Source of the DNA: Rhodospirillales bacterium
GTDB taxonomy: Bacteria > Pseudomonadota > Gammaproteobacteria > Steroidobacterales > JAHEKG01
Direction: 5' to 3'
DNA: 38,073 nucleotides
Assembly: GCA_024638475.1 (NCBI GenBank)
Contig: JAHEKG010000006.1
Coordinates: 1-38,073, forward strand
The notes under the pieces were generated by a model. It did not search any database and was not told the origin of the DNA. It was given only the letters and a program-made list of their open reading frames with translations. Position 1 is the first letter of the stretch. The number at the start of each line of letters is the position of its first letter. Below are positions 19,794 to 33,895 of the stretch, piece after piece. Position numbers and translations under genes: made by a program.

Positions 19794-20327
19794 TCACCAA
19801 GCCCTAACGGGCCCGGTGTCGATATGCACGAAGTTCGATTTGGGGTAATAGCCCACTCCGCCGGACCGCAATGCCAAAGCGGCCCCGCGTAAACGCTCCG
19901 TTGGCACGCTCGTTAGGCGCACGTCCACCGCGCGCCCCACCATATGGAAGCTGCGTTCCGAAACGCCCGCCGTATTGCGACGCAGCATGGTGTTGGTTTT
20001 GCTCGAACGGAAAGCCGATATCACCTCGAAGGCGCCGCGTTCGCCGGCCCGGGCGAACAATAACGCCAGCAAGTCTAATAACGATTTCTCTACCGGGTGT
20101 TCCTCACCGGTGCGAAAATCTCGCAATAGGCGGTTGATGTTGGCCAGGGCAGCCGGCAAATATTCACCGTGCTCGAAGTAGACAACGTCGAGGCGTTCTC
20201 CGGTATGAGCGTGCTGCAACCTGAGACGGCGGTGAGCAGGAGCGGCCGCTAGGGCGAGCGTAGGCGCAGCCATTAGGCCGCAACCGGCAGCCAGGATTCG
20301 GCGTCGAGTCAATTCCATAGGGCGCAT
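19794..20327 (-). CDS. MepK/YcbK-like DUF882 murein endopeptidase, Tat-exported
   Basis: This belongs to the peptidase M15-like DUF882 family; E. coli MepK cleaves 3-3 cross-links in peptidoglycan in the periplasm. A twin-arginine signal MELTRRRILAAGCGLMAAPT begins the protein. Candidate zinc ligands are in SFHMVGRAVDVRL (His and Asp) and NFVHID (His), and FRSSKTNTMLRR is the usual conserved stretch before them. The frame is open to 20378, but the ATG at 20327 sits directly before the Tat motif and follows a GGGAAA. It lies 66 bp downstream of the AgmX-like gene in the same direction. It may belong to the motor operon as a cell-wall enzyme, or may be separately transcribed. Confidence 0.87.
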   Translation of the reverse strand: MRPMELTRRRILAAGCGLMAAPTLALAAAPAHRRLRLQHAHTGERLDVVYFEHGEYLPAALANINRLLRDFRTGEEHPVEKSLLDLLALLFARAGERGAFEVISAFRSSKTNTMLRRNTAGVSERSFHMVGRAVDVRLTSVPTERLRGAALALRSGGVGYYPKSNFVHIDTGPVRAW

Positions 20328-20393
20328 CGAGTAATTTCCCGAACCAACAGTATCGCCAAGGTAACCCATCGGTCGCAACCGATCCAGTCCGGA

Positions 20394-21362
20394 CTATGCG
20401 GGGAAGAAATCGATCGGCTTCGTCGTCGTTATGGCCTCGACATCCTTGGCATCGAAGCGGAACAACAATATTCGCTGCACGAGCTTGCGCTCAAGATCCG
20501 GGTCACCGAGTTCGCTCGAGACGACTTCACAGAATGTTACGGCGCCCGCTGGAGAAATCGTCAGGCGCAGCACCAACTTACCTTCCAGCGAGGGATCTTT
20601 ACGCAGGGCGCGGTTATACAGCGCGTAGATCGCCCCCTTGTTGCGATCGAACACCATTTCTATTTCTTCGCGGCTGCGCGACCCCTTATTGGACGAACCC
20701 GAGCGCCGTGCGGCGCCGCCACCAGCGCCGAAATCCGCGGCGTTGCTCGCGACTCGCGTCGTCGAACGCCCAGCCAAGCCGCTGCCGCCGGTATTACGGC
20801 TGAGCGCGGCAGTATTGATGCCGCCGCTGGCCCGGCCAGCCTTCGACGTAATCAAAGACCGCTCTGCTCGAGGCACGTCGCCCTCGACACCGCCGAGGAG
20901 CTGTTGGTCTTGATTGAGCTTGTCCAGCGTCTCGTTATCACGCAGATCGGCCAATTCGTCGGCAAACGGCAGGAGGCCTGCCACCTTTGCGTTATCTCTC
21001 GCCTGCTCCACCTGATCTATTACCGGTTCCGGTTCGGGCTCGGGTTCTTTTTGGACAACCTTCTCCGGTTCCGGATCGTCCTCCTTCACCACCTTCTCCG
21101 GCTCTTCTTTCACAACCACCGGCGGGGGCGGCGGGGGCGCCTTGCGCTCCAGTATCAGTTTCGCGAACCGCTTCGGAATTTCTTTGACGTCATTCGGGTC
21201 GGGTTGAGGCGTCGGCAAGATACTGATCAGTAACGCCAATACCAATACCGAGCCAACCGTGCGTAGCAGAATCTGCCGGAACTGCTGTTCCTGCTGGGAG
21301 GACATGCTCCAGGGCAGTTCAAAAACACGAAAATACGTCGTCGTTGTCGTTGCGGCGGCCAT
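20394..21362 (-). CDS. TonB-like energy transducer with AgmX/PglI C-terminal domain (GltG/GltJ-like)
   Basis: This links an inner-membrane proton motor to periplasmic or outer-membrane partners. A short cytoplasmic N-terminus precedes one membrane span (TVGSVLVLALLISILPTP, about residues 38-55). A long Pro/Glu/Lys-rich periplasmic linker follows (KAPPPPPPVVVKEEPEK, then repeated EPEP runs), then a Gly/Ser/Arg-rich region. The C-terminal domain is REEIEMVFDRNKGAIYALYN, KDPSLEGKLVLRLTISPAG and FCEVVSSELGDPDLERKLVQ, which is the AgmX/PglI signature of Myxococcus adventurous-gliding proteins. ATG at 21362 follows AAGGA. The first span and linker are TonB-like, but the C-terminal domain is not that of TonB. 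It is the last gene of the tightly spaced operon. Confidence 0.88.
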   Translation of the reverse strand: MAAATTTTTYFRVFELPWSMSSQQEQQFRQILLRTVGSVLVLALLISILPTPQPDPNDVKEIPKRFAKLILERKAPPPPPPVVVKEEPEKVVKEDDPEPEKVVQKEPEPEPEPVIDQVEQARDNAKVAGLLPFADELADLRDNETLDKLNQDQQLLGGVEGDVPRAERSLITSKAGRASGGINTAALSRNTGGSGLAGRSTTRVASNAADFGAGGGAARRSGSSNKGSRSREEIEMVFDRNKGAIYALYNRALRKDPSLEGKLVLRLTISPAGAVTFCEVVSSELGDPDLERKLVQRILLFRFDAKDVEAITTTKPIDFFPA

Positions 21363-21371
21363 ACCCAATCC

Positions 21372-21902
21372 TTAGGTGTTACCGGCGGCTTGAGCCATGA
21401 CGGTGTCTGACGTTTTCTGCAGCACAGCCAGGGATAACTGACCGTAGTCGGCGTCCGTACAAGTTGCCATGACTTTCTTTAGCAACTTATAAGGAATCTC
21501 ACGATCACCCATAATCGTTACCTCGCGATTTAGGATGTCTTCCTTTGCCTCTTGGCGGAGGACCCGATCGGTTTGCTTCTGCAAAGCCGCACGTAGTGCG
21601 GGAATGACCACACTTTCGCTGGCCAGCACCTCGCTGACACTCGCGATGATTCGGCCCTGCACCAATAGGCTGTCCTTGGTGACCATGACCACAACCGTTT
21701 CACGGGACCGCTCTTCCGCCACGGACTCCGGGAGCTTTAGATCCTTGGCGTTAGGTAGAACCTCTACCTCGCTAGAACTTACCAGTAGAAAAAACACGAG
21801 GATCGTGAAAATGTCCATCAGCGACACCAGGTTAAGCGACAGGCCCTTCTTGTGCCGCTTATGGTGGCGCTCCATGCGCGCCGCTCGTCCACCTGAATAC
21901 AT
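21372..21902 (-). CDS. ExbD/TolR-type motor subunit with the conserved membrane aspartate
   Basis: This is a single-span proton-channel subunit. The span near residues 26-45 reads SLNLVSLMDIFTILVFFLLV, with Asp30 at the position of the proton-carrying aspartate of ExbD/TolR/MotB. The periplasmic part (EVLPNAKDLKLPESVAEE, and a C-terminal YKLLKKVMATCTDADYGQL) has the ExbD fold pattern. ATG at 21902 follows AGGAG. It is separated by 9 bp from the AgmX-like gene and by 9 bp from the second ExbD gene. With one ExbB and two ExbDs the arrangement equals AglR-AglQ-AglS. Confidence 0.9.
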   Translation of the reverse strand: MYSGGRAARMERHHKRHKKGLSLNLVSLMDIFTILVFFLLVSSSEVEVLPNAKDLKLPESVAEERSRETVVVMVTKDSLLVQGRIIASVSEVLASESVVIPALRAALQKQTDRVLRQEAKEDILNREVTIMGDREIPYKLLKKVMATCTDADYGQLSLAVLQKTSDTVMAQAAGNT

Positions 21903-21911
21903 CGTCAGCTC

Positions 21912-22406
21912 CTAATTCAAGACCGGCGCATCGCCGATGGATATCTCGGGGAAGAGCTCAGCCTTTAGTACTTGCTCTTCGTCGTCAATTTTCTCCACCA
22001 CACGCACCGTATCCATCACCTGTACAAGCACCTCGTAGGCGATGTCCTGCTCGAGCAACAGCGTCGCATCCGTCTTAGTGGGGAATTTTTCCTTCACCGA
22101 AACGAGATACTCGCTGAGCCTCTTGAGGTCGTATTCGTCGCCGTCGCTTGCGATGTTCGTCAACATGCCCTGGTTGCGATCACCAACTTCAATCGTGGCA
22201 TCGCGTACCGTAATCTCAAGCATGAATTCCGGCTCAGTTGGCTCCTGCTCCTCAACCTGGGAAGTCGGCAGGTTGAGTTCCAGAATTGCCAACCGCGAGA
22301 ACACCGCGGTAATCAGCAAGAACGGCACGAGAATCACCATCAGATTCATGAACGCCGTAATGTTCAATTCGGCGGTTTCGTGCTGCTTACGACGTCGACG
22401 GCTCAT
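21912..22406 (-). CDS. Second ExbD/TolR-type subunit, asparagine in place of the membrane aspartate
   Basis: The plan is the same as its neighbour: a basic N-terminus (MSRRRRKQHETAEL), one span (NITAFMNLMVILVPFLLITA), and a periplasmic domain ending in YEVLVQVMDTVRVVE. Where ExbD proteins carry the essential Asp (family pattern TPLID), this one has Asn21 (AFMNLMVIL). It therefore cannot relay protons by the canonical residue and may be a structural partner of the Asp-bearing subunit. The frame is open to 22466, but ATG at 22406 is right: AGGAG lies at the proper distance and overlaps the ExbB stop, and the longer start would overlap ExbB by 50 bp. Confidence 0.88.
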   Translation of the reverse strand: MSRRRRKQHETAELNITAFMNLMVILVPFLLITAVFSRLAILELNLPTSQVEEQEPTEPEFMLEITVRDATIEVGDRNQGMLTNIASDGDEYDLKRLSEYLVSVKEKFPTKTDATLLLEQDIAYEVLVQVMDTVRVVEKIDDEEQVLKAELFPEISIGDAPVLN

Positions 22407-22416
22407 GGGCTCGCTC

Positions 22417-23076
22417 CTAGGCGGATGCCGCCGGCTTAGTCGGTGCCGAACGCTCCGTAATGGCATTTAGGAATTTCACGGAGGCCATTTCCAGGCTGTC
22501 GACAATCTCAGTGGTCTTAGTTTGCAGGACCGTATGGATCAACAGCAGGGGAATCGCCACCATCAGGCCAAACGCAGTGGTGTTCATCGCCACCGAGATA
22601 CTGGCTGACAGTAGGTCCGCTTTCTCCGCCGGGTTCGCATTAGAGACCGCCGTAAACGCGCGTATCAACCCGATGATGGTGCCGAGTAGTCCAAGCAGCG
22701 TGGCGATGTTCGCAAAGGTCGCGAGATAGTGAGTCCGCTTTTCCAACCGCGGCATCACTTCCATCAGGCTTTCTTCCATGGCCTTTTCCACGTCTTCACG
22801 GCGACGAGCCGAGCGAACGCGATTCAGGCCATAGGTCATGATGGTGGCAACTGCCGCTTTGGATTTACCGGCAACTTCGGCGGCGGCTGAAAAATTACCG
22901 GACCGTAGATAAGGTGTGACCTTCTTCCACAAGACCTTATTCTTAGTCGTGGTAACCGTGAGAAACAGGTAGCGCTCCACAGCGATGGCGAGCCCCAGTG
23001 CAAAAACCAGCACGATGGGGTACATGAAAAGACCGCCCTCCTGAAAGAAGCTCACAATGGTGCTATAGACTTCCAT
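22417..23076 (-). CDS. MotA/TolQ/ExbB-type proton channel
   Basis: This inner-membrane channel subunit drives the ExbD and TonB-like partners with the proton gradient. Three spans are visible in 219 residues: MYPIVLVFALGLAIAVERYL, then ATFANIATLLGLLGTIIGLI, then SVAMNTTAFGLMVAIPLLL. They carry the polar threonines typical of spans 2 and 3 (LLGTIIG, NTTAFG). The cytoplasmic loop between spans 1 and 2 is normal (RREDVEKAMEESLMEVMPRLEKR). ATG at 23076 follows GAGGAG. It lies 5 bp after the preceding gene. By neighbourhood it corresponds to AglR of the Myxococcus gliding motor rather than to TolQ, because no pal/tolB is present. Confidence 0.92.
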   Translation of the reverse strand: MEVYSTIVSFFQEGGLFMYPIVLVFALGLAIAVERYLFLTVTTTKNKVLWKKVTPYLRSGNFSAAAEVAGKSKAAVATIMTYGLNRVRSARRREDVEKAMEESLMEVMPRLEKRTHYLATFANIATLLGLLGTIIGLIRAFTAVSNANPAEKADLLSASISVAMNTTAFGLMVAIPLLLIHTVLQTKTTEIVDSLEMASVKFLNAITERSAPTKPAASA

Positions 23077-23081
23077 GGGTA

Positions 23082-23543
23082 CTACTCCTCTTGGCTCTCG
23101 CCGTACAGTGTGTCGTAATAGTCGAGTTGCCGGCGGAAGACCTCAGGGTCCACCGGAGCCAGCACCTCATCTAACAAAGTATTTACGGGCCTTCCTACTA
23201 AGTCCCCCAAATCCGAGTTTTTCCAGGGGATGATGTATAGGACTTTAGGCAATTCCTGGTTCCCGGTAATTGACGTGGTTCCCAGATCGAGCTGATCCAT
23301 TGCCCGGTATCCGCCGGCAGTCTTGCTCCCCCCCGCAATCGGGGGAGCCGGCGCCGTATCCCGAGCGTCGTCCGCGGGCGCCTGGGCTGCGGCGGGAGAG
23401 GGCGCCGCTGGGGCCGGATCAACGCGGCCCAGGCTCGTATTCACGGCGGGTTCCAGTGCATCGACCTCCGCTATGGGATCTTGCCCGAGGCTCGGCAGCG
23501 GGATCCCGCCGAGCAACGCCATCATCAGCCAAACGCGTCTCAT
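23082..23543 (-). CDS. Small exported protein of the motor operon, unknown function
   Basis: I do not recognise a named family in this 153-residue protein. It has a signal peptide (MRRVWLMMALLGGIPLPSLGQ), an Ala/Pro-rich low-complexity linker at about residues 35-75, and a compact C-terminal segment. That segment (MDQLDLGTTSITGNQELPK, VLYIIPWKNSDLGDLVGRP, VNTLLDEVLAPVDPEVF) looks conserved in character and ends in an acidic tail. It should sit in the periplasm. Its ATG overlaps the stop of the TPR lipoprotein gene (ATGA at 23540-23543) and has AGGAGG upstream, so it is coupled to that gene and lies 5 bp before ExbB. The position suggests a role linking motor and TPR proteins. Confidence 0.75.
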   Translation of the reverse strand: MRRVWLMMALLGGIPLPSLGQDPIAEVDALEPAVNTSLGRVDPAPAAPSPAAAQAPADDARDTAPAPPIAGGSKTAGGYRAMDQLDLGTTSITGNQELPKVLYIIPWKNSDLGDLVGRPVNTLLDEVLAPVDPEVFRRQLDYYDTLYGESQEE

Positions 23544-24229
23544 GGCGCCTCCTCCTGAGCGATACCTTCCTGGGCGATCCGTGTCGTCGGTTCCGTGATA
23601 CCCAATCGACGCCTAAGATCGATGATCCACTTCTTCACGCGGTCATCCTCACCGGCAAGTGTTTGGTAGCGCTCGTAGTGTGGCAGCGCCTCCTCGGGCC
23701 GTTTCAAATACAGGTCCAACAACACGCCCAGGTTGTAATGCGCGAGGGCATAGTCGGGTGCGATCGCCAAAGCATCGGCGTAGGCCTGCTCTGCCGCACC
23801 GAAGTCCCCTTGCCGGCGCAGCAAGATACCCAACTGATTATGCGCTTCGGCGTGAACCGGATTTAGCGCCAGCGCTTTCTGCAAAGCGTCTCTGGCCGCC
23901 GTATCCCGGCCCGAGTCCATGTAAATAATCGCGAGATTGACCCGTGGCCCGGCAAAATCCGGATGCTCCAGAATCAGCTGTTCCAACTCGAGTTCGGCCT
24001 CGGTCACATCGCCGCTGCGCATCGCCGCCAGCGCTCGGTCGAATCCGGCCTGGGCGTCGCCGGGAACCTCGACGATCGGCGCTACAGCAGCAGCCGGCAA
24101 ACCGGGATCGGCGGCAGCGGCGTCGCTGGCGGGTACCGTCTGAGTGGGCGGCACACTGGCGCAACCCGCCAGCACCGCCACAAGCAAGGGCATCAACCAC
24201 CGTGCGGACTTATTGAATCGCAACAACAA
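23540..24229 (-). CDS. TPR-repeat lipoprotein of the motor operon (GltE-like by position)
   Basis: The signal peptide ends in a canonical lipobox, LLVAVLAGC, and lipidation would be on that Cys. The residue at +2 is Ala, so outer-membrane sorting is expected. After an Ala/Pro linker come about four TPR units: FAGPRVNLAIIYMDSGRDTA, NPVHAEAHNQLGILLRRQGD and APDYALAHYNLGVLLDLYLKR are clear. The start is one of three consecutive TTG codons, placed by AGGAGAGAGG upstream. A later ATG would leave no basic n-region. The start overlaps the end of the 942-residue gene by 20 bp. TPR lipoproteins act as assembly scaffolds; GltE (AglT) of Myxococcus is the nearest functional comparison, as an inference. 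Confidence 0.85.
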   Translation of the reverse strand: MLLRFNKSARWLMPLLVAVLAGCASVPPTQTVPASDAAAADPGLPAAAVAPIVEVPGDAQAGFDRALAAMRSGDVTEAELELEQLILEHPDFAGPRVNLAIIYMDSGRDTAARDALQKALALNPVHAEAHNQLGILLRRQGDFGAAEQAYADALAIAPDYALAHYNLGVLLDLYLKRPEEALPHYERYQTLAGEDDRVKKWIIDLRRRLGITEPTTRIAQEGIAQEEAP

Positions 24230-27038
24230 GCCTCTCTCCTAACTCTTGCTTGGCATAGCGTACCGGCATCAACTCGGCGAGCTGTCTCAAGCTCGCCTCG
24301 ATCCATTCGTCGTAGATGGCTTCTTTGGTTCGCTGGGCGTTGACTTCATGTAGTTCGATTGCTTGCTCCTCGAAGGGGTAAGCCTGTTCTTCGAGGAGAA
24401 TCTCGTATTGCTCCAATTCCGCCGCTGTCAGTCCCGCCGGGCGTTCGGACTCAAACAAATCTTTGCTGAATCGATGATAGAGATCGGCAATCTGAAAGGT
24501 CGCGGCCGTCGTCACCTCGGCTACCTCATAGTCTGCCGCGCGTCCGTATGCGGCCAACGCTTCTTCCATTCGCTGCTTCTTGATCTTCAGGCTTGCCTTG
24601 AGCGGAATGACCAGTCGCGTCCCGAGGAAGGCATCCCGCGCAGGTTCGGCCAGCACCAGGGCAGCCTTGGCGGCTAGGTAACGACTCCGATCGGTGCGCT
24701 CTGCGCCGGCCGCGCCGTCGGCGCGTACGATTTCGTTCAACCATTCCATCCGCCCCGCATAGTCGCCGTTCGCCTCAGCCATCTCTACGAGCTTCTGACG
24801 GGCTTCCATTGCCGGACCGAGTGGGCTCGGGTAACGCTCGATGTAGCTGGCGTAAGTGGCGCTGGCAGCGCCGGCATTACTTGCTTGCTCGTACAACTCC
24901 GCGGCTCGCCACAAAGCTTCCTGCTGCTCCTCCGGCGATGACGTCGGCGCCGAAGCGATGCGTTCGAATTCACCCGCTGCGCGTTGGCTCTGGCCCGCCT
25001 CGAGGTAGGCCACGGCCAGGTTTGCCGTTACCTCGTCAACTAATTCGTGGTCCGGGTGATTCGCCCTGAAGCCCTCTAATGCATTCGTCGCGCGAGCCCA
25101 ATCCTTCAGCTGGACGAGAGCAATGGCCGCGTCGTAGTCTGCGGTGACCCTGATAGCCGATGCCGGCGCGGCCCCAGCGACCCTGCCAAAGTGGCCCACC
25201 GCCGTTTCTAGATCGCCAGCCGCACGGGCGAGCTCGCCTTGCTTATAAATCGCCGAAGCGATGCGTTCTACAACAGCAGAATACTGATCATCCGTGGGTG
25301 CAATGTATGCCTGCAGCCGCAGATAGGCCGACTCTGCCTCCGAATAGTCGGCGAGATCGAAATTAGAGTGCGCAATAACGGTCCAAGCGGTGCGCGCATG
25401 TTTGGCTTCCACCGGCGGCTGCAGTGCAACGACCTGGGTGGCAACCTCCTTTGCCTCGACGAATTCGCCCAGCTCAAACAGCGCTTCTGAAGAGGCCGTC
25501 AAGACCGCGCCCGCCTGCTCGTGTTCGGGATAGGTTCGCGCAAATCGAAGACCACTGTCGATGCCCTGCCGATGCCAGGTGCTGCGCTCCGGCTCCGCCA
25601 GCTGCTGTTCGTGTTTCCGATACGCTAATAACGCCGCATAACCTGCCTCACCGCCCTTATCGTGAGGCGGATAAGCATATGCGGTACGTTCATACTCCAG
25701 CGCTGCACCGCCAGGGTCGCCGCTTTCGAATAACACTTCGGCAAGCAGAAAGTTGGTTTGCGGCGCCTCGCTGTCGTTCGGGAAAGATTCCAAATACCCC
25801 CGGTACCACTGCGCAGCTCGGGCGTAGTCGGAAGGCTTCTTGGAACTCTGGGCCTGCGAATGGTAATACTTGGCGAGGTCGGTAAAGTTGGTTTTGAGGT
25901 GCGCCAACACTTCGGGTTGGGTTGCCTGGTCGTGGCGCTCCCAGTATGGGCTAGTGAGCGCATAGCGTTCGACAAAGCTCTGCTTCCCTTCCAAGACCAA
26001 GGTTGCAAATTGTCCTTGTTTGTAGGCTTCGATAACTTCGACTTGAAGCAACGGCGCCTTCACATGGTAGGGATCTAGATCTACGAACGCCTGGTAAGCC
26101 TGGGCACCGTCCTGATAGCGTTCCTTTTCCAAGTAAAGATCGCCCAGGTTGGTATAGATGATGTACGTATAGGGTGGATTGCCGCGGCCACTGAGATATT
26201 CCGTGACCGAATCCGCGCCGTCGATATAAGAAAAACTGATGCTCAAGACGCGAAAGGTATCTTCGACCATCTCGCGCTCCGCGCGAGACATGTTGGCGAT
26301 CACTCGGTCCGTATCGGCCACGGAGGCGGCGTCGCTGCCGCCGTAGGGTATGAGTTTTCGATCCAGTAGCGAAAAGAACGAATCGAGACTCTCTTCATGC
26401 AACATCTGCTTGAACGACGACCATCCATGCTTGTACAGCGCTTGTTCGTAGAAGTTCGAGGCCGGCCCCATTTGGAGCACTTTGTTGTATGCCTCCTCCG
26501 CCTCCGCGTAGCGCTTGTTGACGAACAGTGCTTCACCGCGCCTGAACTGCGCCTCATCCATATGCACGGTAGCCGGGTATTCCGCGACCAGCCGATCCAG
26601 AATGTCTAATGCGCGTTGGTTATCACCCGTGACCTCATAGGCACGCGCCAACTGATAGAGAACTAGGTCGTTCTTGGCGTAATCAGGAAACGCCGCAAGC
26701 AATTGCTCGTACAAACCCACGGCACTCCCGAACGCGCTCGCTTCCAAACTTTCCAAATTGGTTACCAGCTGCTCCGCCTCACCGACTTCCAACTGTAAAT
26801 CAGCCAACCGGCGCATCGCTTCCGCGCGCAACAGCGGATCGCCCGAGGCAAGGTCGAGAAACAAGCGATAGCTTTCCATCGCCTTCGTATCGCTTTGCGG
26901 AATCTGCGAGAACGTGTCGACCTCGACCGTACGGTCCTCGAGGCTCTTGATCGTATCGGCTTCGTCGATCGAATGCTTACCCCCGCCGCCGAACGGCCAG
27001 ATGGCGGCAACCGCAACTAATCCGATCAGGGGACTCAC
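24210..27038 (-). CDS. Large TPR-repeat envelope protein of the motor operon (GltD-like by architecture)
   Basis: The 942 residues consist mostly of degenerate TPR and Sel1-like helical pairs. Examples are ALDILDRLVAEYPATVHMDE, AQFRRGEALFVNKRYAEAEEAY, GDLYLEKERYQDGAQAYQAF, NFLLAEVLFESGDPGGAALEYE and ANLAVAYLEAGQSQRAAGEFE. The N-terminus (PLIGLVAVAAIWPFGGGG) is a short hydrophobic segment that could be a signal or an anchor. The start is GTG, overlapping the stop of the preceding gene (27035-27038), with GGGGTAAG upstream. Such long TPR solenoids are protein-binding scaffolds. In Myxococcus the comparable large periplasmic TPR protein is GltD (AgnA). Direct sequence orthology is not something I can show. 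Confidence 0.82.
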   Translation of the reverse strand: MSPLIGLVAVAAIWPFGGGGKHSIDEADTIKSLEDRTVEVDTFSQIPQSDTKAMESYRLFLDLASGDPLLRAEAMRRLADLQLEVGEAEQLVTNLESLEASAFGSAVGLYEQLLAAFPDYAKNDLVLYQLARAYEVTGDNQRALDILDRLVAEYPATVHMDEAQFRRGEALFVNKRYAEAEEAYNKVLQMGPASNFYEQALYKHGWSSFKQMLHEESLDSFFSLLDRKLIPYGGSDAASVADTDRVIANMSRAEREMVEDTFRVLSISFSYIDGADSVTEYLSGRGNPPYTYIIYTNLGDLYLEKERYQDGAQAYQAFVDLDPYHVKAPLLQVEVIEAYKQGQFATLVLEGKQSFVERYALTSPYWERHDQATQPEVLAHLKTNFTDLAKYYHSQAQSSKKPSDYARAAQWYRGYLESFPNDSEAPQTNFLLAEVLFESGDPGGAALEYERTAYAYPPHDKGGEAGYAALLAYRKHEQQLAEPERSTWHRQGIDSGLRFARTYPEHEQAGAVLTASSEALFELGEFVEAKEVATQVVALQPPVEAKHARTAWTVIAHSNFDLADYSEAESAYLRLQAYIAPTDDQYSAVVERIASAIYKQGELARAAGDLETAVGHFGRVAGAAPASAIRVTADYDAAIALVQLKDWARATNALEGFRANHPDHELVDEVTANLAVAYLEAGQSQRAAGEFERIASAPTSSPEEQQEALWRAAELYEQASNAGAASATYASYIERYPSPLGPAMEARQKLVEMAEANGDYAGRMEWLNEIVRADGAAGAERTDRSRYLAAKAALVLAEPARDAFLGTRLVIPLKASLKIKKQRMEEALAAYGRAADYEVAEVTTAATFQIADLYHRFSKDLFESERPAGLTAAELEQYEILLEEQAYPFEEQAIELHEVNAQRTKEAIYDEWIEASLRQLAELMPVRYAKQELGERLVVAIQ

Positions 27039-28921
27039 GGACTTACCCCGTTCAGGCCGTCGAAATCCGTCACCGCACTAGCCGATGCGCGATCGTAAAT
27101 CGAGGCCAACGCGAATCTGGCTTGGATCATGTAGGTGTCCAGGCGGCGCTTCTGAGCGGTTAGCTCGTCAATCGCGACGTCTTCCAGGAAAGCGCGTTGC
27201 CGGCCCAGAGCATTATCGACGTTACTCGCTACCAACCCGACGCGGGGATTCAACGCCGCAACCCGAGCACTAAGTTCCGCAAACCGCTCCGGCCACTGCG
27301 CCGTTTTCTGCGATACCCTGTGGTAACGCCGCTGCCCCGTCTTGACGTCTTTGTCTAACTGGCGCAACGTTTTCGTCTGACGCCACAGCCGAGCTTTGTA
27401 ATCTCGGCTCAAGTCCCAGTACATTAGGCCCTTGAGAAACTCTTGCTTAGCCGCGATTTCCGCGACCTCGGGGTCGTCTCGGAACATTGCGAGTTTGGAT
27501 TCCATCCCCACCAACAGTTCCCAGTTCGTCTGTTCGTCTAGGGTGCCCAACGCCACGGCATCCTCGTCACGCTCAATGGCCTTCAAAGAGGTCTTCAACT
27601 CCAATAACCGGCTGCCCAGTTCATCCGGATCTGCGCTCGCCAGGCTGGCTTCGATGCGGGGCAAACGTTGCCGGTATGCAACTTCGCGAGTCGCCAGCAT
27701 GTCGTCGAAAGTATCAAGGCTCGCCACCCACTGATCCAAATTGGCTCGCATGAACATCAAATCGCGATAGTTTTTCAAGCCTTCTTGAAACCGGTGACTC
27801 GCCATCAATTCATATAAGTAACGCGTTTCCGGCGCATCGGGTAGTTCATCCAATTGCCAAAACCAACCCATACTCTTGCTCGAATCTTGCGCAAGCACCG
27901 CGGCCAATAATTCGCCATTCCTGATACTGGCGATCGATTGATCAAGACGGGTTATTTCTTCGTGAAAGGCCTCGATCGCGTCCAGGTAGTAATCGGCCGC
28001 CTGCTTGTTTGCGTCAAGCTTGGCGAGCGCGTACGGCACGGCCAATAACGACTCTTGCACGGCGGGATCGAGCAGATGGCGACGCCGCAATTCCATCCAC
28101 GGCACCAGCGCACTACGATAGTGCTCTTGCGCGCTATCCGACCAACCGACACCCAGCAGAGCCTTGGTCGAGAATGGCCCGTCAAGCCTGACCCGCTGTA
28201 ACGCCGGCCGCGCGAGTTCCGGGCGTTCCGCTTGCAGCCAGGCGTAACCTAGCGCGACGTTGGCCTTGTCCCTAAGGCCTGCCATCTCTTCCGTCCGCGG
28301 ATTCAAGCTGCCAACCTCGTCGAGCAGCGCCGTGCCTTCAGCAGTACGATTGAGCCTCACCAAAGCAACGCCCAAGTTATATCGCGAGTAGCCCGACCAT
28401 TCCTTTGGCCCTTCGAAACTCTCTAATTGCAACCGCGCTTCGTCGAAACGATCCTGTTCCATCAATACTTGAGCACGCAGCATGTGCCGCTCGGTCTCGA
28501 GCGGTCCAATGAGCTCGCCCTCAATACGATCTAACGCTGATTCAGCCTCCGCTAGGTAGCCGCGTTGGTACCAGACCTTCGCCATGAAAAACCAGGCGCG
28601 GTCACGAAACTCCGGCGATACCGCATCCTCGAGTAGGCGCTCGAAAATCTGCCCCGCCAACTTGTGTTGACCGTAGGAGAGATACAGGCCACCCAATAAT
28701 AGCTCGGCTTCCTCCGCGTGGTTGCTAACGCGATCGCGCTGTTTTGCCGTCAGCAGGTGGGTCAGGGCCGTAAAGTAGTCGTCCTGATAAAAATAGTACA
28801 GGACCTCCCCATAGTGGAGGTCCTGTACGGTAATCGCGTCGCGCCCGGCGTCTGCGCCAACGGCACTAGAACACAGGACAACCAGCAACAGGCCGCAGTT
28901 TAGGCGTAACCAGCGCCTCAC
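27035..28921 (-). CDS. TPR-repeat exported protein of the motor operon (628 aa)
   Basis: The signal peptide is RLNCGLLLVVLCSSAVGADA. TPR-like pairs follow: EVLYYFYQDDYFTALTHLLT, AEELLLGGLYLSYGQ-type units near residue 70, AWFFMAKVWYQRGYLAEAES and SRYNLGVALVRLNRTAEGTA. A helical, coiled-coil-like C-terminal half covers about residues 370-600 and is rich in Arg, Leu and Glu. It should be periplasmic or peripheral to the outer membrane. The start is GTG, with GGGAG upstream, six bases after the stop of the coiled-coil gene. A perfect 13-bp inverted repeat lies about 95-125 nt into the coding region. Role inferred from the operon: scaffold of the same envelope machine. Confidence 0.8.
   Translation of the reverse strand: MRRWLRLNCGLLLVVLCSSAVGADAGRDAITVQDLHYGEVLYYFYQDDYFTALTHLLTAKQRDRVSNHAEEAELLLGGLYLSYGQHKLAGQIFERLLEDAVSPEFRDRAWFFMAKVWYQRGYLAEAESALDRIEGELIGPLETERHMLRAQVLMEQDRFDEARLQLESFEGPKEWSGYSRYNLGVALVRLNRTAEGTALLDEVGSLNPRTEEMAGLRDKANVALGYAWLQAERPELARPALQRVRLDGPFSTKALLGVGWSDSAQEHYRSALVPWMELRRRHLLDPAVQESLLAVPYALAKLDANKQAADYYLDAIEAFHEEITRLDQSIASIRNGELLAAVLAQDSSKSMGWFWQLDELPDAPETRYLYELMASHRFQEGLKNYRDLMFMRANLDQWVASLDTFDDMLATREVAYRQRLPRIEASLASADPDELGSRLLELKTSLKAIERDEDAVALGTLDEQTNWELLVGMESKLAMFRDDPEVAEIAAKQEFLKGLMYWDLSRDYKARLWRQTKTLRQLDKDVKTGQRRYHRVSQKTAQWPERFAELSARVAALNPRVGLVASNVDNALGRQRAFLEDVAIDELTAQKRRLDTYMIQARFALASIYDRASASAVTDFDGLNGVSP
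28796..28828 (-). repeat. Perfect 13-bp hairpin inside the start of the TPR gene
   Basis: GTACAGGACCTCC (28796-28808) and GGAGGTCCTGTAC (28816-28828) pair without mismatch around the 7-nt loop CCATAGT. On the mRNA it begins about 94 nt after the GTG start and encodes VQDLHYGEVLY. It contains GGAGG on one arm, a Shine-Dalgarno-like sequence that would be hidden in the stem. Confidence 0.75.
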
Positions 28922-28927
28922 TCGATA

Positions 28928-29521
28928 CTACTCCCACTCCTTGACATAGAATTCGGGCTGCTGCTTCAATTCCCGATCGGAAATCTCAAGCTGCACATAC
29001 TTCGGCCCGATGCCTTTCTCGAACATCAGCGAGGCGCCCCTCCGGTAATCCCGCTCATGGGGGCCTTGCCCGGTGAAGATGGCCACTAGCTCATGCTCAC
29101 CGACCTTAAGATTGCCCAAATAGATTTGGTGCACCCCGCCGCGAATTAGTGCATCGACTTCGCGTCGGGTATAGAGATAGTTCGCAACCTCTTTGTTGTT
29201 GACTTTGATTTGTACCGAATCGAGGTTGAAGAAATCCCCAACGTCCATCGACACGAATAGTGCAACCTGCGTATTGGCGGGAAACAGAAGCTCTTCCTCT
29301 AGCAGGAACAGTTCCGTATTCAAGTCCAGTACTTCCTTCTTGAGCTCTTGGATATCCTGATCCAGATTCTTGAAAGAAGCCGCCGCCTGTTTGTTGGCGT
29401 TCAACGCGGCGCCGTCATCCGGATTGAAAGCCGGCGTGGCCTGTTCTTCATCCTGGCCCAATGCGTTGGGGCTCACGGCGAATGCAATCAGCATTACCGC
29501 TGTCAACCAAGCTTTAATCAT
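28928..29521 (-). CDS. Exported coiled-coil protein of the motor operon, unknown function
   Basis: After a signal peptide (MIKAWLTAVMLIAFAVSPNALG) and an acidic stretch there is a heptad-like coiled coil (AAASFKNLDQDIQELKKEV then LDLNTELFLLEEELLFPAN). A beta-rich C-terminal domain follows (TQVALFVSMDVGDFFNLDSV, KVNNKEVANYLYTRREVD, GNLKVGEHELVAIFTGQGP). I do not recognise the family. The frame is open to a GTG at 29545 that overlaps the TlpA-like stop, but ATG at 29521 has GGAG six bases upstream and starts directly at a normal signal peptide. It should be periplasmic. The C-terminal domain with VGEHELVAIFTG resembles Ig-like modules that bind other envelope proteins, as an inference. Confidence 0.75.
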   Translation of the reverse strand: MIKAWLTAVMLIAFAVSPNALGQDEEQATPAFNPDDGAALNANKQAAASFKNLDQDIQELKKEVLDLNTELFLLEEELLFPANTQVALFVSMDVGDFFNLDSVQIKVNNKEVANYLYTRREVDALIRGGVHQIYLGNLKVGEHELVAIFTGQGPHERDYRRGASLMFEKGIGPKYVQLEISDRELKQQPEFYVKEWE

Positions 29522-29541
29522 CGCTGTCTCCATACTGACAG

Positions 29542-30036
29542 TCACTCACGCAGTAGCGCCCTTAACTGTTGAAGATAAATTGTTTCGCGGCCACGCCTGT
29601 AACCCTCATTGACATGCCGGACGATGCCCTCCCGATCCACCAGGAGCATCACGGGTAATGAATCGATCTCGTACTGTTTGCTGACTTTGCGGCCATCGTC
29701 GAAGAGTACGGGATGACGCATGCCGAGGTTAGCCGCCATTTCCGCGGCATCTTCTCGCTTTCGGTCCATATTCACACTCAAGACTTGAAAACCAACTTCG
29801 CGATAACGCTGGTAAAGATCATTGAGCGCCGGCATGGACTCTCGACAATCGCCGCACCAACTGGTCCAGAAGTTGATAAGCACAACCTCGCCGCGATATT
29901 CCGAGAGGCGCAGGTTTTCACCGCCGATACTCTTGAGAACGAAATCCGGCGCCTCGGCACCGGCTAAGTCGGCAGCATTCGAGCCCACCGCAAAAAGCGA
30001 CAAGCTAACCAACAACACACAACGCCACATTGTCAT
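29542..30036 (-). CDS. TlpA-like thioredoxin-fold protein, exported
   Basis: This is a periplasmic thiol-disulfide protein. The signal peptide is MWRCVLLVSLSLFAVGSNA. The TlpA/AhpC-like core is APDFVLKSIGGENLRLSEYRG, VVLINFWTSWCGDCRESMPAL with the active-site pair WCGDC, then VLSVNMDRKREDA and IDSLPVMLLVDREGIV (cis-Pro in LPV). The redox site has Gly-Asp between the cysteines, whereas Gly-Pro is typical of thioredoxin. It is the first gene of the operon as drawn here, with ATG ATA-spaced alternatives at 30036 and 30030. AAGGA precedes it. It could keep cysteines of the envelope proteins reduced, although the downstream proteins contain few cysteines. Confidence 0.9.
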   Translation of the reverse strand: MTMWRCVLLVSLSLFAVGSNAADLAGAEAPDFVLKSIGGENLRLSEYRGEVVLINFWTSWCGDCRESMPALNDLYQRYREVGFQVLSVNMDRKREDAAEMAANLGMRHPVLFDDGRKVSKQYEIDSLPVMLLVDREGIVRHVNEGYRRGRETIYLQQLRALLRE

Positions 30037-30354: not shown

Positions 30355-31368
30355 TTAGGGTGCTATGGCGGGCACCATCAGTCCGTCGGAGTAAAACAAC
30401 TGGCCTTTATCGTCCACGATCACGGCTTCGTACGCCGGCAGCTTCTGAATAATCCGGAGGCCTCGTTCTATCCCGAGTACGAACATCGCGGTCGACAGCG
30501 CATCCGTGATGGTGGCGTCGGGGCCGACTACCGTAGCGCTCTGCACGCCCATGCTCGGCATCCCGGTCGCCGGGTTGATAATGTGATGGTAGCGGACCCC
30601 GTCCTCCACGAAGAAACGTTCGTAGTCGCCGGAGGTAGAGATCGCCTCATCCACCAACGGCAAGCGAGTAACCACAGAACCTTGTTTGCGAGGATTACGA
30701 ATTCCAACTAGCCAGGGCTGCCCTCTGCGGTCACCAAGGACGCGAGTATCGCCCCCCGCGCTAAGAACCGCATGACGAACGCCCACATCACGAAGTATCG
30801 CGGCGCCGCGTTCGACAGCGTAGCCCTTGGCAATCCCTCCCAGATTCAAGCGCATTCCCGGCTTAGTAAACTGAATTTGGCGCGGATCAGCGTTGAGTTT
30901 CACAGCGCGGTAGTCGATGGCGTCGAGTCGCGCGGCGATGCTGTCCACATCGGGACGCTGGCGGGCACGGAAATCATACAAATAACCGACGCTCTCGTAA
31001 GTAATATCAAAGGCACCCTCGGTCGTTACCGATAAGGCGAGCGCGCGGCCGATCAAACCATGCAATTCGGCGCCGAGGCCGACCGGCGCAAGGCCGGCGT
31101 CGCGATTGATTCTAGACAGCTCGCTGTCAGCTTTGTAGGTACTCATTAAGCGATCGATACGAGCAAACTCGGCGATGACTGCTGCGGCCCAGGCCTTGCC
31201 CTGGATGGCATCCTCGGCCCAGAGGTCCACCGTGACCACGGTACCCATCATCGTTTTCTGCTGTCGTTGCCACTCAGCCGAGACTAGCTGCGGCGCCAGT
31301 AACAGAACCGCTTCAAGGACAAACACCGCCCAGAACTGGCCGTCACCCAGCGTTCGTCGTATGCTCAA
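30355..31368 (-). CDS. apbE: FAD:protein FMN transferase (ApbE family)
   Basis: ApbE attaches FMN covalently to threonine in target flavoproteins, usually in the periplasm. Signatures are MMGTVVTVDLWAED, LMSTYKADSELSRINRDAG, GMRLNLGGIAKGYAVERGA (flavin/AMP site), AISTSGDYERFF, HHIINPATGMPS and TDALSTAMFVLG. A signal peptide is present (FWAVFVLEAVLLLAPQLVSA). The start is unclear. The frame is open to 31482, but TTG at 31368 gives the best signal peptide and keeps it clear of the divergent LemA gene, whose ATG is only 28 bp away. ATG at 31410 would overlap LemA. No obvious target protein with a flavinylation motif is visible in the window. Confidence 0.9.
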   Translation of the reverse strand: MSIRRTLGDGQFWAVFVLEAVLLLAPQLVSAEWQRQQKTMMGTVVTVDLWAEDAIQGKAWAAAVIAEFARIDRLMSTYKADSELSRINRDAGLAPVGLGAELHGLIGRALALSVTTEGAFDITYESVGYLYDFRARQRPDVDSIAARLDAIDYRAVKLNADPRQIQFTKPGMRLNLGGIAKGYAVERGAAILRDVGVRHAVLSAGGDTRVLGDRRGQPWLVGIRNPRKQGSVVTRLPLVDEAISTSGDYERFFVEDGVRYHHIINPATGMPSMGVQSATVVGPDATITDALSTAMFVLGIERGLRIIQKLPAYEAVIVDDKGQLFYSDGLMVPAIAP

Positions 31369-31396
31369 CGGGCATTTGAATCTAGGGGTTTCCGTT

Positions 31397-31990
31397 ATGA
31401 GTTGGCTCATATTCCTTGGCGTCCTGGCCGCCATCGCCGTTTGGGCTGTTGGCATGTATAACAATTTGGTGAACTTGCGCAATCGGGTACGTAACGCTTT
31501 TTCACAAATTGATGTTCAGCTTACCCGCCGGTACGACCTAATACCTAATTTGATCGAAACGGTAAAAGGCTATATGGCCCATGAGCGTGAAACCTTGGAA
31601 GCGGTGATCAACGCCCGTAACGCGGCAGTCAACGGCCTGAAAGCGGCGGCGGCGGACCCTTCCAACGCGGAAGCCATGAAGGCGCTGGGCGGCGCGGAAG
31701 CCGCATTGGGCGGGACTTTGGGCAGGCTATTTGCCCTAGCCGAAGCATATCCCGACCTAAAGGCCAACCAGAATATGATTCAATTACAAGAGGAGCTCGC
31801 CTCCACGGAGAACAAAGTCGCTTTCTCACGGCAGGCCTTCAACGATTCAGTGATGAACTACAACAACGCGACGGAAAATTTCCCAAGCAACATCGTTGCC
31901 AATACCTTCAGCTTCAAGGCCGCCGAGTTCCTGGAAATCGAATCGGAAACCAAGCGAGAAGTGCCAAAGGTCAGCTTCGGCAAGGATTGA
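31397..31990 (+). CDS. lemA: LemA family protein
   Basis: LemA proteins are anchored by one N-terminal helix with a helical periplasmic or extracytoplasmic domain, and their genes very often accompany HtpX-like proteases, as here. The span is SWLIFLGVLAAIAVWAVGMY. The family body is clear: NNLVNLRNRVRNAFSQIDVQ, LTRRYDLIPNLIETVKGYM, HERETLEAVINARNAAVNGL, LGRLFALAEAYPDLKANQNM and AFSRQAFNDSVMNYNNATEN. At 197 residues it is of normal length. The frame is open from 31175, but ATG at 31397 begins directly before the anchor. It is divergent from apbE and lies 39 bp before the protease gene. Its biochemical role is not settled in the family. Confidence 0.93.
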   Translation: MSWLIFLGVLAAIAVWAVGMYNNLVNLRNRVRNAFSQIDVQLTRRYDLIPNLIETVKGYMAHERETLEAVINARNAAVNGLKAAAADPSNAEAMKALGGAEAALGGTLGRLFALAEAYPDLKANQNMIQLQEELASTENKVAFSRQAFNDSVMNYNNATENFPSNIVANTFSFKAAEFLEIESETKREVPKVSFGKD

Positions 31991-32029
31991 GCGGGAGCTT
32001 GCCGAATAATTGTGCCGTAGCGGGCAATC

Positions 32030-33895
32030 ATGGATTTTTTTAACACTCAGGAGCAATCCCGGCGAACCACGCGCCGGCTCATGATCCTGTTCGGCTTGGC
32101 CGTTATCACCATAGTAATAGCGGTCACGTTGGTGGGCGGATTCTTGCTCGGCGCCTTCCAGTCGTATGACGACGGAAGCAGGCTCGTCCAGGTCCAGCCG
32201 GACTGGACATCACTCGCCCTGGTCGCCTTCGGTACCGGTCTATTCATTGGCTTGGCGAGCCTGTATCGAACCGCCCGATTGCGTCAAGGCGGCGGCGCAG
32301 TGGCCCGGGCGCTGGGGGGGACGGAAATCGCCTCTGATACAAGTGACCCACTCCGCCGGCGGCTCATCAATGTCGTCGAAGAAATGTCTATCGCTTCCGG
32401 GGTACCCGTGCCGGAAATCTTTGTGCTCGAGCGAGAACCGGGGATCAACGCCTTTGCCGCGGGTTTTAACCCCAATGACGCTGCAATCGCGGTTACCCAA
32501 GGCACACTGGAACACTTGAGCCGCGATGAGCTGCAGGGCGTCGTTGGCCATGAATTCAGCCATATCCTGAATGGGGACATGCGCATCAATATGCGCCTGA
32601 TCGGAGTCCTGTATGGGATTCTCGTGTTGTCGTTGATCGGTCGGCTACTGCTGCGGGGCGGGCGGTTTGCCAGCGTCAGCCGGCGCCGCGGCAATGGCGG
32701 CGCGCCATTGGTGATTCTCGGATTGGCGTTGGCCGTTATCGGCTCTATTGGGGTTCTGTTTGGACGGCTAATCAAAGCCGGGGTGTCACGCCAGCGTGAG
32801 TATCTGGCGGATGCTTCAGCCGTGCAGTTCACTCGCGACCCCAGCGGGCTTGCAGGCGCGCTGAAAAAAATCGGTGGCTTCGGCAGCAATTTGGACGCGA
32901 CGGATGGCGAGGAAGTTGCACACATGTTGTTCAGTCGGGGCGCCAACGCGTTTAGAGGCTGGTTCGCGACTCATCCGCCTTTAGAACAACGGATCAGGGC
33001 GTTAGATCCGCAGTTTGCTGCCGAGACACCGAGCCGGGATCCACAGCACCAGGCCGCGACCCCGGAATTACCGGTCTCCGGGTTGGCCGCCGGGTTGGCG
33101 GGGCGGGCCGACCAACCGACGGCCGCGGAACTGCACCATGCCAGCCGGCTCCACGCGTCCATGCCGAGTTCGCTTGCCGACGCCGCACACGCGCGAGAAG
33201 GCAGTTTCCTCCTGATCGTCGCGCTGGCACTGAACAGCGATCAACGCCAGCGCAGCGCGCAGCTGGGCCTGTTGCGCAGTCGCCTCGGGCAACAGCGCGC
33301 GGATCTCTGCGAACGCCTGAGCAATGAGCTAAGCGCGGCGGGTGTCGAAGTGCGGCTTCCGCTTCTCGAGATGGCCTTTCCTCGGGTCAAAGACCGCCCC
33401 GCCAGTCAGCTGGAGTTCCTACTCGCTCTGATTAACGAACTCATCGCGATGGACGACCGCCTGGAGCCCTTCGAACTCGCACTGGTCCGAACATTTGAAA
33501 GTTACTTAGCCGAACAACCGGAGTTTCGAACCGGCGCCAAAACGCTTGTCGCGGATCGGAGACAGGTGGAAACCGCAAGCGTCGATCTCATCGTTGGCTT
33601 GGCGGCTTTCAGTCATACCGAATCCCAGCAACGGCATGAAGCCGTGCAGCGAGGTTTACAGGCCTTGGGCGCCGATCACTCAACTCAGGCGCTTCAACCT
33701 GAACGCAACCTGGAACGGCTTGATGCGGCCCTCAGCGTCCTGGCTACGGCATCCCTTGACGCTCGCCGCCGTGCGCTGGTAGCCGCGTACGCCTGTGTTA
33801 GCGCAGACAACCACATCAACTTGGAAGAAGGCGAACTGTTCCGCGCCATTGCGGCGGTTTTGGGTTGTCCCTTGCCGCCGTTCGCAAAACACTAA
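32030..33895 (+). CDS. HtpX-like M48 membrane metalloprotease with long C-terminal extension
   Basis: This is a zinc endopeptidase that acts on membrane or misfolded proteins. Two spans precede the catalytic domain (residues 17-42 and 60-79). The zinc site is HEFSH (His174, Glu175, His178), with the third ligand in SRQREYLADASAVQF, and two more hydrophobic segments lie between them, as in HtpX. The family ends after FRGWFATHPPLEQRIRALDP (near residue 320). Here about 290 further residues follow, helical and cytoplasmic in character, finishing with LVAAYACVSADNHINLEEGELFRAI, which resembles a TerB-like or EF-type acidic helical domain. This makes it 621 residues, about twice E. coli HtpX. It is paired with LemA. 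Confidence 0.9.
   Translation: MDFFNTQEQSRRTTRRLMILFGLAVITIVIAVTLVGGFLLGAFQSYDDGSRLVQVQPDWTSLALVAFGTGLFIGLASLYRTARLRQGGGAVARALGGTEIASDTSDPLRRRLINVVEEMSIASGVPVPEIFVLEREPGINAFAAGFNPNDAAIAVTQGTLEHLSRDELQGVVGHEFSHILNGDMRINMRLIGVLYGILVLSLIGRLLLRGGRFASVSRRRGNGGAPLVILGLALAVIGSIGVLFGRLIKAGVSRQREYLADASAVQFTRDPSGLAGALKKIGGFGSNLDATDGEEVAHMLFSRGANAFRGWFATHPPLEQRIRALDPQFAAETPSRDPQHQAATPELPVSGLAAGLAGRADQPTAAELHHASRLHASMPSSLADAAHAREGSFLLIVALALNSDQRQRSAQLGLLRSRLGQQRADLCERLSNELSAAGVEVRLPLLEMAFPRVKDRPASQLEFLLALINELIAMDDRLEPFELALVRTFESYLAEQPEFRTGAKTLVADRRQVETASVDLIVGLAAFSHTESQQRHEAVQRGLQALGADHSTQALQPERNLERLDAALSVLATASLDARRRALVAAYACVSADNHINLEEGELFRAIAAVLGCPLPPFAKH

Follow-up and report, generated by a model that had tools for sequence, protein, structure and literature searches.

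A conserved nine-gene operon of the probable gammaproteobacterial Agl-Glt core type and its candidate outer-membrane partners

Gammaproteobacteria and Geobacter carry an Agl-Glt core complex, which consists of AglRQS together with GltC, GltD, GltE and GltG (Luciano et al. 2011, PMC3169522). The same authors doubted that this core alone drives motility, and gliding is undocumented in most of its hosts (PMC3169522). In Myxococcus xanthus, the contact between AglR and GltG was shown by two-hybrid analysis (PMC3169522), and either Glt or Nfs proteins are moved at the cell surface by the same motor (PMC3858216). GltA and GltB of M. xanthus are paralogous outer-membrane barrels that are bound by GltC and co-transcribed with it (PMC4488436); gltA and gltB have been reported from Myxococcales and Bdellovibrionales only (PMC3169522). 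In the literature searched, we found no functional study of this core in gammaproteobacteria later than 2011. In this study, we analyzed an operon of this kind in a 38,073-nucleotide stretch of DNA (the window; contig JAHEKG010000006.1 of assembly GCA_024638475.1) from a bacterium whose genome is 82% complete and divided into 384 contigs. An initial annotation, made from the sequence of the window, had proposed an Agl-Glt envelope motor operon with tetratricopeptide repeat (TPR) proteins, and its statement that gammaproteobacteria hold relatives of the Myxococcus core agrees with the report of Luciano et al. (PMC3169522).

The nine core genes are tightly packed on the minus strand from 29545 to 20394 according to the open reading frame (ORF) coordinates. 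In the direction of transcription they encode exp205, TPR628, TPR942, TPR229, exp153, ExbB, ExbD1, ExbD2 and an AgmX/TonB-like protein (Table 1). Thus one ExbB, two ExbDs, the AgmX/PglI TonB-like protein, three TPR proteins and two exported proteins of no recognized family were all found where they had been annotated. With ExbD1 started at 22406, neighbouring genes overlap by at most 20 bp or are separated by at most 15 bp. The initial annotation had given overlaps or gaps under 25 bp; the ORF opening at 22466 appears to overlap ExbB by 50 bp. Since the ATG at 22406 is preceded by the ribosome-binding site GGAG, it is probably the true start. Families were assigned by Pfam/NCBIfam profile searches of the window proteins. 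The motor and the AgmX/TonB-like protein are supported as Agl-Glt parts by these profiles, which give no such support for the other components. The content and order of the genes indicate that the operon is the gammaproteobacterial core of Luciano et al. and not a complete gliding machine. We consider it rather probable that it encodes an envelope-spanning Agl-Glt-type motor, driven by the proton-motive force (PMF), which applies force or movement to outer-membrane or surface molecules via TPR proteins and barrels.

We examined the conservation of the operon by scanning genome contigs for exp205. The scan gave 80 loci in Steroidobacter, Peristeroidobacter, Woeseiaceae and uncultured gammaproteobacteria, and exp205 was present in 82 of 369 gammaproteobacterial genomes. 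Gene order and strand were identical in 74 of the 74 related loci holding all nine genes, and these loci were spread over two deep paralogous groups. Therefore, the nine-gene arrangement is not due to chance. In 72 of 76 loci, a TlpA gene is found upstream of exp205 at a distance of at most 1.5 kb. Genes for ApbE, LemA and an M48 protease (30355-33895 in the window) accompany the operon in 54-58 of the 80 loci, so the arrangement in the window is an inherited locus and not a recent insertion.

The interval 19794–30036 additionally contains the genes of a TlpA-like thioredoxin and a MepK-like endopeptidase. The MepK gene (19794) lies inside the annotated interval; it was beside the operon in none of the 47 related loci with enough sequence, is not a conserved member, and was rejected as a functional part. 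The same count bears on the idea of a Tol-Pal-type machine for the cell wall or division with MepK as the wall cutter. The YbgF/CpoB-type TPRs, the MepK gene directly downstream and TolQ as the best motor profile for ExbB would fit such a machine. However, MepK linkage was absent, ExbB reached 64 bits against the TolQ cut-off of 221, the TolR score was about 26 bits against a cut-off of 127 (NCBIfam), and the operon is without Pal, TolB and TolA. We regard a Tol-Pal-type machine as extremely unlikely.

Table 1. Features of the interval 19794–30036 of the window
Feature	Coordinates	Strand	Evidence and remarks
TlpA-like exported thioredoxin	29542..30036	-	AhpC-TSA 4.7e-27; 4-bp overlap with exp205; likely the first gene of the transcript; conserved neighbour
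exp205, exported coiled coil and beta-sandwich (predicted)	28928..29545	-	marker of the system; no family match
TPR protein of 628 aa (TPR628), GltC position	27035..28921	-	TPR_19 5.3e-9
TPR protein of 942 aa (TPR942), GltD position	24210..27038	-	TPR_16 5.8e-21; YbgF/CpoB-type repeats 2.9e-30
TPR lipoprotein of 229 aa (TPR229), GltE position	23540..24229	-	TPR_16 1.4e-21; lipobox LAGC
exp153, exported, GltF-like position	23082..23543	-	conserved motif; no family match
ExbB/AglR-like motor subunit	22417..23076	-	MotA_ExbB 1.2e-30
ExbD1	21912..22406 (ORF opens 22466)	-	ExbD 1.2e-14; membrane Asp replaced by Asn
ExbD2	21372..21902	-	ExbD 9.4e-16; proton-carrying Asp kept
GltG-like AgmX/TonB-like protein	20394..21368	-	NF033768 63.1 bits, cut-off 40
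MepK/DUF882 endopeptidase	19794..20378	-	Peptidase_M15_2 5.6e-51; MepK 181.8 bits, cut-off 185; adjacent, not a conserved member

Motors of the ExbB/ExbD family are driven by the PMF. The membrane Asp was present in ExbD2 in 72 of 72 sequences, and Asn stood in its place in ExbD1 in 56 of 66. The ten ExbD1 exceptions are mostly Steroidobacter-like (L010, L012, L013, L036, L039, L047, L059, L066, L070 and L165). In these relatives both ExbDs carry the Asp, and the one-Asp motor can naturally be compared with theirs. As only ExbD2 bears a protonatable Asp, the two axle subunits would not be equivalent, and the natural reading of this pattern is that ExbD1 and ExbD2 form an obligate heterodimer in which one proton site works. 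A review predicted that AglQ and AglS each retain the membrane Asp (PMC9389320), and proton conductance was abolished by the AglQ D28N replacement (PMC3858216). In the ExbB tree, the ExbBs of the two operon types described below clustered together, and two further ExbB/TolQ-like proteins encoded in the genome fell outside this cluster. The Zorya system (ZorAB) was also considered and rejected; in the PADLOC/Zorya models, ZorA gave only 22 bits, on ExbB, as a generic MotA/ExbB match, and there was no ZorB match.

The AgmX/TonB-like protein has one transmembrane helix, a Pro-rich linker and an AgmX/PglI C-terminal domain (alignment A5). It did not reach the cut-off of the full-length GltG equivalog (40 against 650 bits), and a PDB sequence search with it gave no meaningful match. 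A third AgmX-like C-terminal domain match in the genome lies in a 354-aa open frame on contig C257 (L091, 5956-6129; 36 bits, below cut-off). We asked how far an ordinary TonB-type energiser, serving a TonB-dependent receptor with the assistance of TPR proteins, would account for the operon. It would explain the ExbB, ExbD and TonB-like parts, and a weak TonB_C match of 17.1 bits, under the cut-off, points the same way. Nevertheless, the C-terminal domain is of the AgmX type, and two ExbDs, three TPR proteins and two unique exported proteins are foreign to classical TonB systems. No TonB-dependent receptor family recurred among the clustered neighbours of the 80 loci or in the type I and type II loci; conserved synteny with such a receptor, which the initial annotation had named as an argument against its own proposal, was not seen. 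These results make a TonB-type energiser quite unlikely.

Outer-membrane barrels were then found to be associated with the core. In some loci of the type I operon, to which the window operon belongs, genes for an SH3-barrel protein, OMP_myx_plus, TlpA, a DUF3570 barrel and ApbE precede the core. OMP_myx_plus (TIGR04565) reached 149 bits in type I loci against a cut-off of 60. The C-terminus of the SH3-barrel protein weakly reached the same profile (25.9 bits), so the two proteins are probably paralogues. Among the 369 gammaproteobacterial genomes, 56, from 31 families by our count, contained OMP_myx_plus above the cut-off. All 56 barrel genomes contained exp205, compared with 82 of 369 overall (Fisher 1.7e-46, uncorrected for relatedness). 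Furthermore, 41 of 57 OMP_myx_plus barrels were encoded no more than 13 kb from an exp205 gene, and in linked loci the barrel pair, TlpA and DUF3570 form part of the same supercluster as exp205. A strong OMP_myx_plus match was absent from several genomes showing only type II operons (G019, G311, G346, G361 and G250).

The initial annotation had noted no outer-membrane barrel near the operon. This was correct for the neighbourhood and not for the genome, which carries a barrel module on contig C210 (L154, 4752-7849), where the genes of DUF3570, TlpA and OMP_myx_plus stand with an SH3-barrel gene that is truncated at the end of the contig; in many other species such a module is linked to the operon. 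The C210 module is likely the unlinked outer-membrane partner of the window operon. By analogy with M. xanthus, the pair of OMP_myx_plus and SH3-barrel proteins is a candidate counterpart of GltA and GltB. If it is, the known taxonomic range of these barrels would widen.

A second complete nine-gene core operon is present in the same genome on contig C270 (L090, 744-17582; L174 also). The gammaproteobacterial core operons are split into two types, and the window operon is of type I. The type II ExbBs form a clade (94/89; 99/98 with L137). At the N-terminus, type II GltG-like proteins are longer by roughly 150 residues than those of type I (alignment A5). Behind the C270 operon lies the gene of a protein of 2204 aa in which DUF11, SdrD_B and isopeptide-forming fimbrial domains were found, followed by that of a 1711-aa OmpA-domain protein; other type II loci share this arrangement of a giant DUF11 protein and an OmpA-domain protein. 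A large exported-looking ORF starts within about 600 bp past the GltG gene in 10 of the 10 type II relatives with sequence there. In all six type II loci traced further, including that of the same genome, the gene after this ORF codes for a protein of about 1,700 aa. Two OmpA domains were found in both of these proteins that were scanned (n=2), and by inspection the C-terminus resembles the end of a barrel. A third kind of core operon stands alone beside housekeeping genes (L180-L191); here TPR628 is shortened, or an apparent TPR628-TPR942 fusion of 1415-1535 aa is encoded.

Type I cores are in many genomes flanked by a divergent, Planctomycetes-like set of genes for exported haem lipoproteins (L155-L172 for type I, and L007-L012, L018 and L022). 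Their CxxCH counts are two in the HzsA-like/PD40 protein, two in the LamG-cytochrome and one in the PSCyt2-like protein. The set also includes a DUF1501-like protein; we read this label from the sequence, and the Pfam scan was empty. We weighed whether the type I operon belongs to a redox system outside the cytoplasm, in which it would place or energise exported haem lipoproteins, DUF3570 and the DUF1501-like protein while TlpA and ApbE serve in their maturation. The haem-motif counts (2, 2, 1) are near-constant, ApbE and TlpA adjoin the window operon, and DUF3570 has been shown to be flavinylated elsewhere (PMC8238504). On the other hand, most of the 80 loci lack the haem module, which was rejected as an obligatory partner, and a search of the same genome, 82% complete, did not find the PSCyt2-like gene. 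Of 27 type I DUF3570s (e.g. L018:6873-8015), 22 lack the flavinylation motif [ST]GA[ST] reported for this family (PMC8238504), despite the linked ApbE; a flavinylated DUF3570 was accordingly rejected as the principal connection with ApbE. A redox role of this kind seems unlikely to us.

Models were obtained for two of the window proteins. The AlphaFold model of exp205 (mean predicted local distance difference test score, pLDDT, 84.7) has a signal segment, a helix at residues 51-87 and then an eight-strand sandwich. Foldseek against the PDB gave no significant match for exp205, only immunoglobulin- and transthyretin-like folds, and a PDB sequence search gave no meaningful one. The model of TPR628 (pLDDT 88.7) has a TPR superhelix, with TPR helices at 35-345, and a C-terminal coiled coil that includes a 116-residue helix at 508-623; as modelled, this helix would be long enough to reach far across the periplasm. 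Its Foldseek matches in the PDB were generic TPR proteins. Neither exp205 nor exp153 matched any Pfam/NCBIfam family. exp153 has the strongly conserved motif ITGNxELPKVLYIVPWK, and G94, E97, P99, P106, W107 and R138 are invariant (alignment A1). The gene occupies the position of gltF in gltDEFG (order according to PMC3169522), and no profile supports an identity with GltF.

All three TPR proteins matched TPR families, and their labels as GltC, GltD and GltE would be positional, resting on TPR content, lipobox and gene order. The TPR942 relatives form a 24-member alignment (A4), and a lipobox-like motif was found in 68 of 83 TPR229 relatives. The modelled TPR fold of TPR628 and the place of its gene are compatible with GltC, and the GltC profile appeared weakly in 3 of 28 TPR628 relatives (best 4.5e-4); GltC and NfsC themselves have only 19% identity (PMC4488436). 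TPR229 scored 48.7–49.9 bits with the GltE model and 79.5 bits with PilW. Several observations weigh against an Agl-Glt-type motor with barrels as its load. No direct profile link connects the three TPR proteins to GltC, GltD or GltE: the GltC model NF033756 did not find TPR628 in a scan of the same genome, no GltD model responded to TPR942, and the GltE model is unspecific, with TPR229 as its second-best match in the genome. In the window the barrel module is not linked to the core, the 80 loci of the exp205 scan include just 3 in which it is, and no cargo was identified for the window operon. Stand-alone cores occur without a barrel or giant protein, which means that neither is strictly required. 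The annotated Glt relation of the TPR proteins would rest on TPR content, lipobox and position, as neither the GltC nor the GltE model is specific for the window genes. The proposed match to AglRQS with GltC, D, E, G and J is right in kind for the motor, the AgmX/TonB-like transducer, the TPR lipoprotein and the operon structure; GltJ is outside the published core.

From the observed gene content, gene order, barrel co-occurrence, Asp-to-Asn change and the predicted folds of exp205 and TPR628, we infer how the complex may assemble, how force may pass through it and what its cargo may be. ExbB and the ExbD1/ExbD2 heterodimer would form the inner-membrane motor, powered by the PMF through the one Asp of ExbD2. 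The motor would act on the GltG-like protein as output arm, with its Pro-rich part crossing the wall. This arm would engage the periplasmic TPR proteins, exp153 and exp205, which may carry force to the outer membrane. There the load would be the barrel pair of OMP_myx_plus and SH3-barrel proteins (C210), and giant surface proteins in the sister systems. The output may be export, placement or anchoring of surface material, and probably not gliding. Because the relatives come with outer-membrane barrels or giant surface proteins, moving or displaying surface material is likelier than gliding. A gliding machine like that of Myxococcus would have in its favour the core Agl-Glt parts and the candidate GltA/GltB-like barrels in the genome. 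However, GltI/J/K/H-like genes were not seen in conserved neighbourhoods, Luciano et al. argue against motility driven by the core alone, most hosts are not documented to glide (PMC3169522), and the marker exp205 occurs in about one fifth of the sampled gammaproteobacterial genomes. Gliding is therefore very unlikely here, and the initial annotation, in allowing a task other than gliding, was in line with the doubts of Luciano et al.

More tentatively, one nine-gene motor may underlie a family of modular surface machines. Type I would work with GltA/GltB-like barrels and, in many species, with lipoproteins bearing haem and lectin parts, and type II with giant DUF11/isopeptide proteins and the 1,700-aa OmpA-domain protein. 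Such a motor, built on a single-Asp ExbD heterodimer, could serve generally to export or position large surface proteins with power from the PMF, and gliding would later have exploited it; we hold this wider scheme as a possibility with less than even chances. The links to barrels and giant proteins give the gammaproteobacterial core candidate partners and cargo. These candidates are testable, since cultured Steroidobacter and Peristeroidobacter strains carry the operon, among them Steroidobacter agaridevorans and Peristeroidobacter agariperforans (loci L039 and L059), whose ExbD1 has the Asp. In the one-Asp ExbD pair, nature provides a test of the use that such motors make of their two axle subunits.

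Compared with TonB-ExbBD and Tol-Pal, the operon shares the PMF motor family and a TonB-like C-terminus, but it lacks a receptor, Pal, TolA and TolB and has two distinct ExbDs and a large TPR scaffold. The Agl-Nfs spore-coat system also combines the motor with Glt-like proteins, and there surface polymer is transported without motility (PMC3858216); unlike it, the window operon has no recognized exopolysaccharide genes beside it. With the M. xanthus gliding machine the operon shares the motor type, an AgmX/TonB-like transducer, periplasmic TPR proteins, a TPR lipoprotein, the order D-E-(F)-G by position and a candidate barrel pair elsewhere in the genome. It differs in that GltI/J/K/H-like genes were not recognized in the window or the conserved neighbourhoods. 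M. xanthus GltG has an FHA domain (PMC3169522), whereas in type I the N-terminus of the GltG-like protein is short, and AglQ and AglS are both predicted to have the Asp that ExbD1 lacks here (56/66). With the core of Luciano et al. the operon shares the arrangement as a single unit, the ExbB/ExbD/ExbD motor, three TPR proteins and a TonB protein resembling GltG; both also contain an extra gene that Myxococcales lack and are often duplicated within a genome. The operon differs from that core in having nine genes, with exp205 and exp153 as extra ones, in the co-occurrence of one lineage with OMP_myx_plus barrels, and in one ExbD without the Asp. Operons of this kind have been known since 2011; what this study adds is their partner modules, a co-occurrence of barrel and core that runs from barrel to core only, the split into two types and the one-Asp motor.

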